From Candidatus Omnitrophota bacterium (GTDB lineage Bacteria > Omnitrophota > Gorgyraeia > Zapsychrales > Zapsychraceae), in assembly GCA_016214285.1 (NCBI GenBank), contig JACROV010000096.1, positions 1-34,146 on the forward strand: a DNA stretch of 34,146 nucleotides, in the 5' to 3' direction. Positions 168-34,146 of the stretch are shown here, in pieces. The translations under genes and the position numbers were made by a program. Positions within the stretch are counted from its first letter, which is position 1, and the number at the start of each line of letters is the position of its first letter. The notes under the pieces are model-generated. The model searched no databases. It saw only the letters and a list, made by a program, of their open reading frames with translations, and was not told where the DNA came from.

Positions 168-896
168 ATGATGAACAGCGAGTGCCGTGTTATGGCAACT
201 AATACTCAAAATATTTGTGAGGCACAAGACTTAGGCCTTATTGACTACGCCGCCTCGTACGGGATCCAGAAAGAGTGCGTGGCGCGGGTGTTGGCAGGCG
301 GGGCGCAGGTCTTGCTTTTGTGCGAGCACCCGGCTGTGATCACGCTCGGCCGGCTGGCGCAAGAGGCGAACATTTTAAATCTGGAGGCGATCAACCGTCA
401 GGGCATCCGCGTTGTCCCCATTGACCGCGGGGGGGACGTGACCCTGCACGCGCCCGGGCAGTTGGTGGTTTATCCGATCCTGAACCTCGCGCCCTGCCCG
501 CCTGTCCCGCGGAGCGGGACCTACTCGGCAGGCAGGCAGGGTAGCCGCGACTTACGGCTCTATATGCATAAGCTGGAACAAGTTACCATTGCTTTATTGA
601 AGAGTTTTGATATAGTGGCTAGTAGATTTTCCGGGAAAACAGGCGTTTTTGTGGGGCCGGATAAAATTGTTTCCTTGGGAATTGGTGTTCGCAAGTGGGT
701 GACGTACCACGGCTTGGGCCTCAACGTCAATACGGATTTAAAATTGTTCGAATTGATCAAGCCATGTGGTCTGGATGTTCGCATGACTTCGATAGCCCGG
801 ATCAAAGGTAACCCGGTTGATATGAGCAGGGTTAAACAGCAATTGGTCGAATGTTTCAAAAAGGGATTTGGTTATGAGTTTTGTTACACTGCCTGA
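168..896 (+). CDS. lipB: Lipoyl(octanoyl) transferase LipB
   Basis: Transfers octanoate from acyl carrier protein to the lysine of lipoyl domains, the first step of protein lipoylation in the cytoplasm. Family signatures are visible: RGGDVTLHAPGQ (residues ~89-100), KIVSLGIGVRKWVTYHGLGLNV with the catalytic lysine, and LIKPCG with the catalytic cysteine. At 242 aa it is slightly long, because an in-frame palindromic insert adds about 17 residues (PCPPVPRSGTYSAGRQGS) after the LNL strand, where relatives have a short loop. The ATG at 168 has AGAGG upstream; the ATG at 192 (MATNTQ) is an alternative without a clear ribosome site. The next gene, a lone lipoyl domain, overlaps its end, suggesting enzyme and substrate are made together. 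Identification is firm; whether the insert is tolerated is inferred. Confidence 0.95.
   Translation: MMNSECRVMATNTQNICEAQDLGLIDYAASYGIQKECVARVLAGGAQVLLLCEHPAVITLGRLAQEANILNLEAINRQGIRVVPIDRGGDVTLHAPGQLVVYPILNLAPCPPVPRSGTYSAGRQGSRDLRLYMHKLEQVTIALLKSFDIVASRFSGKTGVFVGPDKIVSLGIGVRKWVTYHGLGLNVNTDLKLFELIKPCGLDVRMTSIARIKGNPVDMSRVKQQLVECFKKGFGYEFCYTA
492..541. repeat. In-frame GC-rich palindromic insert in lipB
   Basis: Nested dyad. Outer arms CCCTGCCCGCCTG (492-504) and CAGGCAGGCAGGG (529-541) pair at 12 of 13 positions. An inner hairpin GTCCCGC/GCGGGAC (504-510, 514-520) has a GGA loop. The whole unit is read through in frame and interrupts the LipB fold between a conserved strand and helix. CCTGCC-type palindromes of this kind are, from general knowledge, frequent in genomes of uncultured bacteria. 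Confidence 0.75.
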
Positions 897-2301: not shown

Positions 2302-3345
2302 ATGTTCAAATATTATCTTTATAGGTTCGCGCGGTTTCTTGTCAACCGATTATCGTTGGTGACGTCCTATAAACTGGGCGTTATTTTATCGGATATCCAG
2401 TATGTTTGTTCTTTCCGGGACCGGCGCGCGGTGCGCAATAATTTACAGAAGATCCTGCCCGCCGGGGCGGACCTATCGGCCATGACCCGGGAGGTGTTCC
2501 GGAACTTCGGAAAATATCTGGTGGAGTTCCTCCGGATGGACGGGATGGTCAATCAGGATTTTATCGCGCGTCGGGTCAAGATCGAGAATATTGATCGGAT
2601 CGCGCGGGCGCTGGAAAAAGGCAAAGGGGCCATTATCATGACGGCGCATATCGGCAACTGGGAGCTCGGCGCGGTTTTGCTCAATATGCTGGGGTATCCT
2701 CTGATGGCGGTCACCCTGCCGCATAAAGAACGTCCCGTTAATGACCTGTTTAATCATCAGCGCGAGGTTCACGGGATCACAGTCGTAGCGACCCATAACG
2801 CCATTCGTAAATGTATGGAACAGCTTAAGAGTAACAAGATCATTGCCATCGTGGGCGACCGCGACTTTACGGTCAAAGGCGGCGAATTGATCGATTTTCT
2901 CGGGGCCAAGGCGTTGATCCCCAAAGGGGCCGCCATATTCTCGAAAAAAACCGGCGCGCCGATCATCCCGACATTTTTGATTCGTGAACCGGATGGCACG
3001 TTCCGGCTTTCTATCCTCGAGCCGATGTTTCCTCCGAAGGAGAAGGAGGCGGATGCGGAGGGCCTTCCCCCGGCAGGCTCCTCCCGCAGGGAGCCTCTCG
3101 GCCTGTGGCCAAAGGCTCCCTGCGGGGAGGAGGAAGAAGAGGCGGTCCGAAGGATCATGCGCCGTTATCTGGCCGTCATCGAAGACCAGATCCGCCGCTA
3201 TCCGACGCAGTGGCTGCTTTTTCGAGAATTCGCCGTTTCTTCCGTTCCGTTCCGGAATGGAACGGAACGGAACAGAGCGGAAAAAACGAATACCCAGGAT
3301 ATGAAAAACCTGCCTGACCGTAGACAGGAATTATCAGCGTATTGA
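2302..3345 (+). CDS. LpxL/HtrB-type lipid A late acyltransferase with inserts
   Basis: Membrane-associated acyltransferase of the LpxL/LpxM family, expected to add a secondary acyl chain to lipid A. The catalytic H(X4)E motif is in MTAHIGNWELGAVLL (residues ~113-127). GDRDFTVKGG, PKGAAIFSKKTGAPIIPTF and the terminal QWLLFREF are also family features. Residues ~257-277 (PPAGSSRREPLGLWPKAPCG) come from an in-frame GC-rich palindrome. After QWLLFREF, where relatives usually end, there is a roughly 35-residue tail coded by a second palindrome (3240-3272) and a degenerate third. The ATG at 2302 follows GGGACACAGG. The enzyme may still work, since both additions lie outside the core motifs. The preceding GT28 gene and following GT2 gene support an envelope-lipid operon. 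Confidence 0.85.
   Translation: MFKYYLYRFARFLVNRLSLVTSYKLGVILSDIQYVCSFRDRRAVRNNLQKILPAGADLSAMTREVFRNFGKYLVEFLRMDGMVNQDFIARRVKIENIDRIARALEKGKGAIIMTAHIGNWELGAVLLNMLGYPLMAVTLPHKERPVNDLFNHQREVHGITVVATHNAIRKCMEQLKSNKIIAIVGDRDFTVKGGELIDFLGAKALIPKGAAIFSKKTGAPIIPTFLIREPDGTFRLSILEPMFPPKEKEADAEGLPPAGSSRREPLGLWPKAPCGEEEEEAVRRIMRRYLAVIEDQIRRYPTQWLLFREFAVSSVPFRNGTERNRAEKTNTQDMKNLPDRRQELSAY
3071..3132. repeat. In-frame GC-rich palindrome in the acyltransferase gene
   Basis: Arms CTCCTCCCGCAGGGAGCCT (3078-3096) and AGGCTCCCTGCGGGGAGGAG (3113-3132) are complementary with one bulged base. The loop holds a small GGCC-TGT-GGCC hairpin. The unit is read through in frame as a Gly/Pro/Arg/Glu-rich peptide. The right arm shares AGGCTCCCTGCGGG with the uvrB upstream copy and, with one change, with the SH3-gene copy. 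Confidence 0.8.
3240..3272. repeat. Perfect hairpin in the acyltransferase C-terminal tail
   Basis: TTCCGTTCCGTTCC (3240-3253) and GGAACGGAACGGAA (3259-3272) are perfect 14-bp arms around a GGAAT loop. It lies in coding sequence just after the expected end of the acyltransferase fold, and each arm is itself a short GTTCC iteration. A third weak dyad (CCTGCCTGACCGTAGACAGG near 3310-3329) follows before the stop. Confidence 0.8.
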
Positions 3346-21623: not shown

Positions 21624-22541
21624 ATGCCTTACAAGTGTCGTTTCCTTAAAGTGAAACGAATTGTCGTGGTTTTTGCCGTTGCCTTCCTGGTTCCTGCCCC
21701 TGCGTTTGCCGCGCAGGAATCCTTCCCCTTTTTAGCCCAAGCGATCAACGAACGCGTCAATGTCCGCGCCGGACAAAGCCAGAACTTCGAAAAACTTTAC
21801 CAATTAGAAAAAGGTGAAGAAGTTATCGTCGTGGGCAAGGATTTCAGCTGGTATAAGGTCCAGATTCCTCCAAGTACGTATGTTTACATTAGCGACAAAT
21901 ATGTGCGTCTGGTCAACAGCATGCCTGTAGGCTCTTCCCCGCAGGCCGAGAGGCTCCCGGCGGGAGGAACCTCTGGCCTGCGGGAGGAGGGAGAGATCAT
22001 CGGTGACCGCGTGAATGTCCGGTCTTCCGCGAAGGTCGAGTCGACTATTCTGGGCCAGGTGGAAAAAGGGTCACGCGTTCGCGTTCTCGAGAAGATCCCT
22101 GGATGGTACAAGATCGCCCCGCCGGCACAGGTTTTCGGCTGGGTTGCCGACGGACTGGTAAAATTTAAATCCAGGGACATCACGGCGTATCATCCAAAGG
22201 AGAGGCATCAAGAAGGATCCCCGGCCGGCGAACCAGGCAGCGAGGCAAGCGAAACAAGCCAGGCGCCGCAACCCGCGACGCAAGGGGCAGCATCCGCCAA
22301 TTCCCAAAAGGTTTCGGTAACCGGAGTCCTGCGGTTATTACCGCCGCGCCAGGATAATATTGACGTGTCCTATGAACTGCTCATCCGCAACAAGTCCGCC
22401 TATTTTATTCAAGGTCCGCGCGCCATGTTCGACGATTTTGCCCGCCACACGGTCACGGCCGAGGGGGCGTTAAACGCCGATCTTGAAAAACAGTTTTTAA
22501 GGCCTGTCCTGAACGTTGCCCGGGTCCAATTGGTGTTGTAA
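21624..22541 (+). CDS. Secreted protein with two bacterial SH3 domains
   Basis: A 305-aa exported protein. A Sec signal peptide (MPYKCRFLKVKRIVVVFAVAFLV..AFA) should be cut after residue ~29. Two SH3b domains follow: RVNVRAGQSQNFEKLYQLEKGEEVIVV (~40-95) and RVNVRSSAKVESTILGQVEKGSRVRVL (~130-180). Such domains bind peptidoglycan or proteins. Between them lies a palindromic insert (VGSSPQAERLPAGGTSGLREE). After a Gln/Ala/Ser-rich linker, the C-terminal ~80 residues (SYELLIRNKSAYFIQGPRAMFD) form a further domain that I do not recognise. Start ATG 21624; the 5' ribosome site is weak. Confidence 0.85.
   Translation: MPYKCRFLKVKRIVVVFAVAFLVPAPAFAAQESFPFLAQAINERVNVRAGQSQNFEKLYQLEKGEEVIVVGKDFSWYKVQIPPSTYVYISDKYVRLVNSMPVGSSPQAERLPAGGTSGLREEGEIIGDRVNVRSSAKVESTILGQVEKGSRVRVLEKIPGWYKIAPPAQVFGWVADGLVKFKSRDITAYHPKERHQEGSPAGEPGSEASETSQAPQPATQGAASANSQKVSVTGVLRLLPPRQDNIDVSYELLIRNKSAYFIQGPRAMFDDFARHTVTAEGALNADLEKQFLRPVLNVARVQLVL
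21931..21990. repeat. In-frame GC-rich palindrome in the SH3-protein gene
   Basis: CTCTTCCCCGCAGGCCGAGAGG (21932-21953) faces CCTCTGGCCTGCGGGAGGAG (21970-21989) with few mismatches. Between them, CTCCCGGCGGGAG forms an inner hairpin. The copy shares GAGAGGCTCCC..CGGGAGG and TGCGGGAGGAGG with the acyltransferase copy. It is read in frame and lies in the linker between the two SH3 domains, where insertion should be tolerated. Confidence 0.8.
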
Positions 22542-24297: not shown

Positions 24298-24987
24298 TCA
24301 GCGTCCCTGTTCCCGGACCTCCAGGATCGTAACGTTATCCCCATCGCGCAATTCGACCCTGTTCAAAGTGATCTTGTTTATCCTTTGGCCAGCGATGTAA
24401 TCCCCGACCTCGTAGATCTCCCCGTTGATCAAGGCGGCCATTTTGCTTTGGTCCATCATGATGCCGTTTAGGACAAGATTTTTAGCCGGCGCGCCCACTG
24501 AAAATTTTATTTCGGCCGGAGGTTCCCTCCCCGCAGCCATAGGTCCCCCGAGGGGGAGGAGCCTTTGGCTAGGGGCAAGGGACGCGCTCGCGGCGGGAAC
24601 GGGTTGCGGCAAGGAGGCCTCGGGTTTGGGTTGTGCCGTTATGGTGATACTTTTGCGGGCTGCTGGAGATCTTTTAGGATGCAGGGAGGAGCGGAATAGT
24701 TGCGGTTGGAAGATGAACAGGATCCACGCGGCCAGGCCTAAAACCAGGATCTCCGCGATCACGATCAGGTGCCAACGCTTGGTGGAAGTCCGTTTGGCCT
24801 GGGGCGCCGGGGTTGCCGCGGGCGCGGAAGAAGGCGCCGGCGTAAAGGGTTGCGCGGGTTGCGCCGCGGGGGACTGCCAGGCCTTCTGTCCCACGGAGAT
24901 CCGGTCGTCGGTGACGGTTACCGTTTTTTCTTTAAGATCATTGAGATTGGTTTGTGTCTTTTTTAAGGCCTCATTGATGATGCTCAT
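24298..24987 (-). CDS. gspB: GspB-like secretion assembly protein
   Basis: A 229-aa bitopic inner-membrane protein. The N-terminus (MSIINEALKKTQTNLNDLKEKT) is the pattern of GspB/ExeB-like proteins. A linker rich in Pro/Ala leads to a single transmembrane helix (~75-93, LIVIAEILVLGLAAWILFI). The periplasmic C-terminus holds the GspB domain (LNGIMMDQSKMAALINGEIYEVGDYI and INKITLNRVELRDGDNV). With GspA it helps position secretin multimers through the peptidoglycan. It overlaps gspA by 4 nt on the minus strand. Residues ~134-155 come from an in-frame palindrome. No other gsp genes are present in the window. Confidence 0.85.
   Translation of the reverse strand: MSIINEALKKTQTNLNDLKEKTVTVTDDRISVGQKAWQSPAAQPAQPFTPAPSSAPAATPAPQAKRTSTKRWHLIVIAEILVLGLAAWILFIFQPQLFRSSLHPKRSPAARKSITITAQPKPEASLPQPVPAASASLAPSQRLLPLGGPMAAGREPPAEIKFSVGAPAKNLVLNGIMMDQSKMAALINGEIYEVGDYIAGQRINKITLNRVELRDGDNVTILEVREQGR
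24522..24583. repeat. In-frame GC-rich palindrome in gspB
   Basis: GTTCCCTCCCCGCAGCCATAGG (24522-24543) faces CCTTTGGCTAGGGGCAAGGGAC (24562-24583), about two-thirds complementary. The inner TCCCCCGAGGGGGA is a perfect dyad. On the coding strand it reads CCAAAGGCTCC..TGCGGGGAGGG, sharing the AAAGGCTCC and TGCGGGGAGG blocks with the acyltransferase copy. It lies in the disordered linker before the periplasmic domain and adds the LAPSQRLLPLGGPMAAGREP peptide. Confidence 0.7.
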
Positions 24988-28716: not shown

Positions 28717-28796
28717 GTCAATGCCAACCCTTTTCGTTCACGTTCGCCCCTCCCCGCGGGGAGGGGCTCAAGTTCACTCCAAGGTTTGGCATTGAC
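28717..28796. repeat. 80-bp inverted repeat with a perfect 22-bp core palindrome
   Basis: GTCAATGCCAACCC (28717-28730) and GTTTGGCATTGAC (28784-28796) pair almost completely. Halfway between them, GCCCCTCCCCGCGGGGAGGGGC (28746-28767) is self-complementary over 22 bp. No ORF uses it. It resembles the nested layout of the in-gene palindromes (outer arms, inner GC-rich hairpin). Confidence 0.7.
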
Positions 28797-28814: not shown

Positions 28815-28920
28815 GAAAGTTTGCCTCACTGTGAGCAGGGCATCGTGAGGCCGAGGCGGCCGAGGAGGCTCCCTGCGGGAGGGAAAATGAACGTCCCTGC
28901 CGAATAGTGAGGAAAACTTC
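28815..28920 (+). promoter_or_regulatory. Stem-forming leader covering the uvrB ribosome binding site
   Basis: GAAAGTTTGCCTCACT (28815-28830) can pair with AGTGAGGAAAACTTC (28906-28920), which contains the GAGG ribosome site and ends at the uvrB ATG. Inside, GCAGGG (28835-28840) pairs with CCCTGC (28895-28900), and the core holds AGGCTCCCTGCGGGAGGG, a copy of the in-gene palindrome family. Folding would hide the ribosome site. The effect is predicted, not shown. Confidence 0.55.

Positions 28921-34039: not shown

Positions 34040-34146
<107 letters not shown>

Follow-up and report, generated by a model that had tools for sequence, protein, structure and literature searches.

The question raised by this locus is whether a GC-rich palindrome translated inside the lipB gene is a native part of the gene or a copy of a mobile sequence. 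The window, i.e., the whole stretch of 34,146 nucleotides that was analysed, belongs to a Candidatus Omnitrophota genome (G000 hereafter; the other genomes of the genus are G001 to G005). Judged by its matches to Pfam and to PDB 2qht, the host ORF is a genuine LipB. Within it, all three nested arm pairs between positions 492 and 541 are exact (Table 1), the innermost joining 505–510 to 514–519 across the GGA loop, and the dyad is translated in frame within NLAPCPPVPRSGTYSAGRQGSRDL. As single-stranded DNA, the segment 480–550 folds at −24.2 kcal/mol, against −15.8 ± 2.25 kcal/mol in dinucleotide shuffles (z = −3.73, with 0 of 200 shuffles folding as well), and an Rfam search matched nothing at the dyad. 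The sequence, together with the ORF and Pfam evidence, confirmed what the preliminary description had reported, namely a GC-rich nested dyad read in frame inside lipB.

Table 1. Coordinates of the lipB element, its parts, and other features of the window
Feature	Position	Strand	Basis or remark
lipB (octanoyltransferase) ORF, host gene	168–896	+	ORF list; Pfam LplA-B_cat, E 1e-38; PDB lipoyltransferases 2qht, 1w66
Inserted 45-bp element, 15 codons	491–535	+	Empty site in G005 lipB; missing from 29 other LipB
Left outer arm CCCTGCC	492–498		Sequence
Left middle arm GCCTG	500–504		Sequence
Inner hairpin TCCCGC-GGA-GCGGGA	505–519		Best-conserved part of the family; helix paired in 97% of cells, 17 copies
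Conserved tag CCTACTCGG at hairpin foot; minus strand CCGAGTAGG contains GTAG	520–528		Family alignments
Right middle arm CAGGC	529–533		Sequence
Right outer arm GGCAGGG, partly native lipB	535–541		Sequence; G005 empty site
Full-length R1 covariance-model match	496–542	+	70.9 bits; copy itself in training set
AGGCTCCC-type element, in frame in acyltransferase-like ORF (2302–3345)	3066–3135		
AGGCTCCC-type element, in frame in SH3-like protein (21624–22541)	21939–21972		
AGGCTCCC-type element, in frame in ORF 24298–24987	24528–24569		
Near-perfect palindrome, 80 bp, upstream of uvrB-like ORF	28717–28796		Two 40-nt arms, 78% complementary, no spacer
AGGCTCCC copy near the 80-bp palindrome	28858–28882		
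Group II intron start, cut by contig end, ~340 bases past groEL-like ORF	34095–34146		Rfam group-II-D1D4-3, 42 bits

Of the 55 genomes searched, 49 have a LipB match; an alignment was made of the 30 loci with the highest scores, one of which is that of the window. The extra residues are missing from all 29 other aligned LipB proteins of these related genomes, hence no relative carries them without the dyad. In the nearest relative, G005 (84% protein identity), the site is empty: its gene reads CTCAACCTCGC|GCAGAGTAACCGTGAC, and that of the window reads CTGAACCTCGC followed by the 45 bp and by GCAGGGTAGCCGCGAC. The placement of the insert is ambiguous by 2 bp, 491–535, 492–536, and 493–537 being equivalent, and the bounds obtained from this alignment imply that lipB itself supplies the 3′ end of the outer arm. 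The residues had been described as added in frame, which holds, but their number, given as about 17, is exactly 15 (45 bp) on the basis of the G005 empty site. The AlphaFold model of the window's LipB, built from the 30-sequence alignment (mean pLDDT 89.6), agrees with the proposed position between a conserved strand (residues 85–91) and helix (residues 116–132); residues 104–110 have a pLDDT below 50, and in this model the insert probably sits in a surface loop. With 104 contigs and 88% completeness, the genome counts as a fragmented MAG, which could raise the suspicion of an assembly artefact or chimera; this is extremely improbable, as lipB is in frame on both flanks with high identity to G005 and the element is also found inside genes in MAGs of other projects.

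The palindrome belongs to a repeat family with consensus GCCTGCCTGTCCCGCGGAGCGGGACCTRCTCGGCCGGCAGGCAGGC. A 79-base probe found more copies in the window's genome; further copies were then collected from searches and selected stretches of the genomes with a probe of the consensus and with R1, a covariance model trained on 14 copies, matches above 50 bits being taken as strong copies. The 17 strong copies are distributed among G000 (six, of which only the lipB one lies in the window), G003 (five), G002 (three), G005 (two), and G001 (one), with none in G004, so that five of the six genomes of the genus carry the family. In the other 75 of the 81 order genomes searched no strong copy was present, and a single 35-bit match was obtained outside the genus. 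An exact scan for the core in 84,980 species genomes returned five records, all from Candidatus Omnitrophota and from several projects, and the exact core was not matched among IMG/VR viral contigs. The unit thus recurs across the genome and the genus, mostly overlapping genes, and the earlier suggestion of a comparable mobile palindrome family in this lineage is supported, its mobility being inferred from insertion polymorphism between species.

The family unit is composed of the inner hairpin, the conserved tag CCTRCTCGG, and the outer arms CCTGCC/GGCAGG. Both sides of the inner helix have changed at two pairs (e.g., TTCCCC/GGGGAA in the mnmA copy), which gives modest covariation support for the hairpin, 14 of the copies having also trained R1. 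The outer arms slip by at least one base among copies and are paired in 67% of cells in one register. On the minus strand, the hairpin foot reads GTAG in 10 of the 17 copies and GCAG in four. A search for generic hairpin-plus-tag patterns across 269 kb of the genome (5 sites versus 1–2 in shuffles) was dropped as a copy census, its signal over shuffles being too weak.

Fourteen of the 17 strong copies overlap ORFs, nine internally and five at ORF ends, and the remaining three are intergenic. The internal copies lie in lipB and a FeoA-like gene (G000), in tsaE, mnmA, and the gene of a TPR/coiled-coil protein (G003), in polA, dsbD, and a pyridine-nucleotide oxidoreductase gene (G002), and in the gene of a DUF1016 protein (G005). 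The copies at ORF ends fall at the C-termini of a histidine kinase and of MoaE and at the N-termini of an ATP-synthase alpha/beta-like protein and of two pilin-like proteins. Among the intergenic copies, whose neighboring genes were named by eye, one is upstream of a PilX-like protein gene in G000, and the other two, in G001 and in G005, precede one and the same cold-shock gene; no other site is clearly shared. Another copy, weaker at 31 bits, is found in frame in a polysaccharide deacetylase.

At one of the pilin-like sites (L083:131–201, G000:C64) the inner hairpin is expanded in tandem (GCGGGACGCGAAGCGGGACGCGAAGCGGGAC) and ends directly before the class III-type GQ of the protein; at the other (L077:290–336, G003:C37) a copy occupies the same GQ position in a different pilin-like gene. 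From a reading of its sequence, the G003 copy seems to add ~41 bp, to bring a TAG, and to frameshift the start region; in-frame insertion is therefore probably not universal, this copy being a likely exception.

When did these copies arrive, and how large is the inserted unit? Exactly 45 bp were added at four loci, lipB, tsaE, mnmA, and polA. In G003, tsaE and mnmA are each exactly 45 bp longer than their orthologs in G000 and in other members of the genus, and polA of G002 reads GCGCG[TTCCTG...CAGGAA]CGCCG (45 bp) where G005 and G000 read GCGC(G/A)CGCCG. There is no target-site duplication at polA, and the remaining sites are ambiguous by 2–4 bp. The inserted residues correspond to gaps against the solved structures of LipB, TsaE, Taq polymerase, and MnmA, and DsbD homologs lack those of dsbD in a protein-level comparison. 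The ATPase-like and oxidoreductase genes have net length differences that are multiples of three, and in-gene copies measured against an ortholog add a multiple of three bases. The oxidoreductase gene exceeds that of G000 by 39 bp in G002 and by ~15 bp in G005, the latter possibly being a remnant of the element. L182 of G003 aligned only spuriously to the DUF1016 site, and this alignment was discarded.

The N-terminal site of the ATP-synthase alpha/beta-like gene holds a family copy in G000 (L080, G000:C28) and a different CCTGCC palindrome in G005 (L147, G005:C25), and neither palindrome is found at the same site in G001 and G003.

As read from these alignments, several loci gained the palindrome after the species of the genus had diverged. 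The numbers of bases to the left and right of the hairpin stem are 12–14/16–18 in lipB and 6/24 in tsaE and polA; the copy ends differ, so that the transposing unit is not sharply bounded.

The element is read through as a short peptide rich in Pro, Gly, Arg, and Ser, and this peptide changes from gene to gene. It is LPVPRSGTYSAGRQ in lipB, tsaE, the TPR protein, and the oxidoreductase, with a variant in dsbD; ACLSRGAGPTRPAGR in the mnmA, DUF1016, and kinase copies; PACPAERDLLGRQAG in the FeoA-like copy; and, from the opposite strand, LPAGRVGPAPRDRQ in the polA, ATPase, and MoaE copies. In total, both orientations and no fewer than four reading frames are in use among the gene copies. Since unrelated peptides come out of one DNA sequence in this way, it is the DNA, and not the peptide, that spreads. 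An adaptive stop-free design is superfluous: among random 45-mers at 77% GC, 39% are open in all six frames, so that high GC alone leaves such DNA mostly stop-free, and the A variant of the consensus does have one stop on the minus strand.

These peptides also bear on the idea that the insert has been retained as useful, either as an adaptive LipB loop or as an RNA hairpin tuning translation. The strong DNA fold, the strong fold of the consensus as RNA, and the intact state of the lipB copy would agree with it. We nevertheless regard it as very unlikely, given that the same DNA yields unrelated peptides in different genes, that every other aligned LipB does without the segment, and that the segment is modelled as disordered.

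Taken as a whole, the lipB segment is very probably a copy of a genus-specific, non-autonomous mobile palindrome family of REP/MITE-like kind. The palindrome would spread by hairpin-dependent copying, for which a transposase or a repair activity would act in trans, and would insert without target-site duplication. Purifying selection would remove the insertions that shift the frame or break the structure and retain in-frame copies in tolerant loops, where the encoded peptide would be tolerated rather than useful; LipB with the insert would presumably still be active.

The GTAG/GCAG hairpin foot points to a REP-like, Y1-transposase route. As a specific mechanism, it is possible, if tentative, that a REP-associated tyrosine transposase (RAYT) mobilises the palindrome in trans through its minus-strand GTAG hairpin, the element then being a true GTAG-type REP: GYAG variants are known for GTAG families (PMC3733652), polA received its copy without target duplication, and the genus has Y1_Tnp genes of RAYT-like length. 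However, the flanks of all seven Y1_Tnp matches in the genus hold no copy of the element, as far as incomplete MAGs and contig ends allow, and Y1/RAYT transposase genes were accordingly rejected as its carriers. Moreover, G003 (an 86% complete MAG) has five strong copies and zero Y1_Tnp matches, the outer arms enclose the tag, unlike in simple REPs, and the majority of copies overlap genes. In G005, a CCTGCCTGCCGCAGGCAGGCAGG palindrome adjoins an IS200-like transposase gene bracketed by CCCCGCCTC/GAGGCGGGG hairpins (L097:1082–1150, G005:C19).

The variable copy ends are compatible with a repair-based route, in which no dedicated transposase acts and template switching at hairpins during replication or repair pastes the hairpin into a break. 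In lipB and tsaE the arms remain complementary into the native flank, L083 shows tandem amplification of its hairpin, and the ATPase site of G005 has a different palindrome, all of which fits the same route. It is unlikely, however, as exactly 45 bp were inserted four times independently, in three cases in the 6/24 hairpin register, which suggests a defined unit.

The palindrome family of lipB is accompanied in the same genome by a second one. AGGCTCCC palindromes have 40 matches in G000, of which many are read in frame within long ORFs (those of the window are in Table 1). In both families a CCTnnTCGGCC-type tag comes after the hairpin, whereas the AGGCTCCC family has another stem, many more matches in G000, and often forms multi-hairpin arrays. 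Mixed forms of the two also exist (CTCCCCGAAGGGGAGCCTACTCGGCCG at G000:C10:4005, and L221). The preliminary description had set the two families apart by sequence and likened them in design only; the difference in the stem stands, but the common tag and the mixed copies go beyond a likeness of design, and on this sequence evidence the families are probably related variants.

In a nuclease-like gene, a AGGCTCCC-type element occupies the same in-frame site in two species (L182 in G003:C26 and L212 in G000:C47), which suggests that some of the AGGCTCCC coding insertions are inherited. It is conceivable, although rather doubtful, that the two related families spread largely via genes with a unit divisible by three, giving many core proteins species-specific loops derived from the elements. 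If true, gene-spreading palindromes of the 45-bp and AGGCTCCC kinds would keep generating natural variation in protein length outside Rickettsiales.

How does the 45-bp family compare with known systems? In the passages of PMC10969869, PMC2229807, and PMC3767692 that report on Ogata et al. (2000, 2002, 2005), Rickettsia palindromic elements (RPEs) are ~100–150 bp long and confined to Rickettsiales; they and the protein-coding palindromes of Wolbachia are interspersed and seemingly neutral, lying between genes and also, in frame, within conserved ones, and orthologs can hold different palindromes at one site. Similarly, the Omnitrophota element is in frame in conserved genes (lipB, tsaE, mnmA, and polA) whose ortholog sites are empty, has both intragenic and intergenic copies, and can be replaced by another palindrome at the same site. 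It differs in being GC-rich and 45 bp long at the four empty sites, in being translated in both orientations and in four frames or more, and in its lineage, the host being an Omnitrophota and the exact core being found in Omnitrophota only; it is by these traits that it is set apart.

In GTAG-type REPs the foot of a short hairpin carries a GTAG/GCAG tag; they lie mostly between genes, often linked to a RAYT, and some are intragenic, those in DNA polymerase I genes among them (Di Nocera et al. 2013, PMC3733652). The Omnitrophota element has the GTAG/GYAG tag at one hairpin foot, but the tag lies inside the CCTGCC/GGCAGG outer arms instead of being terminal and unpaired, only three of 17 strong copies are intergenic, and none adjoins a Y1_Tnp match of the genus in a REPtron-like association, within what incomplete MAGs and contig ends permit to see. 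Bacterial MITEs are short, interspersed, non-coding by themselves, and have inverted repeats (review PMC10969869), all of which also applies to the Omnitrophota element; unlike in MITEs, its ends are not fixed, no target-site duplication is present at the unambiguous polA site, and a parent insertion sequence was not found. Arms that could correspond to the terminal inverted repeats of a classical MITE are present, with 67% of cells paired in one register and with ends that vary among copies.

Given its departures from RPEs in length and lineage, and from REPs in extragenic location, terminal tag, and RAYT association, the element was treated as a family of its own within the same general kind. 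Searches of open-licence papers turned up no account of such elements in Omnitrophota. It is a separate, shorter, genus-restricted family that acts like RPEs and intragenic REPs. In-frame coding palindromes are best known from, and mostly discussed for, Rickettsia and Wolbachia; the Omnitrophota family indicates that new protein segments have arisen by the same route in an uncultured, distant phylum, and it offers recent pairs of genes with and without the insert in which the effects on enzymes can be tested.
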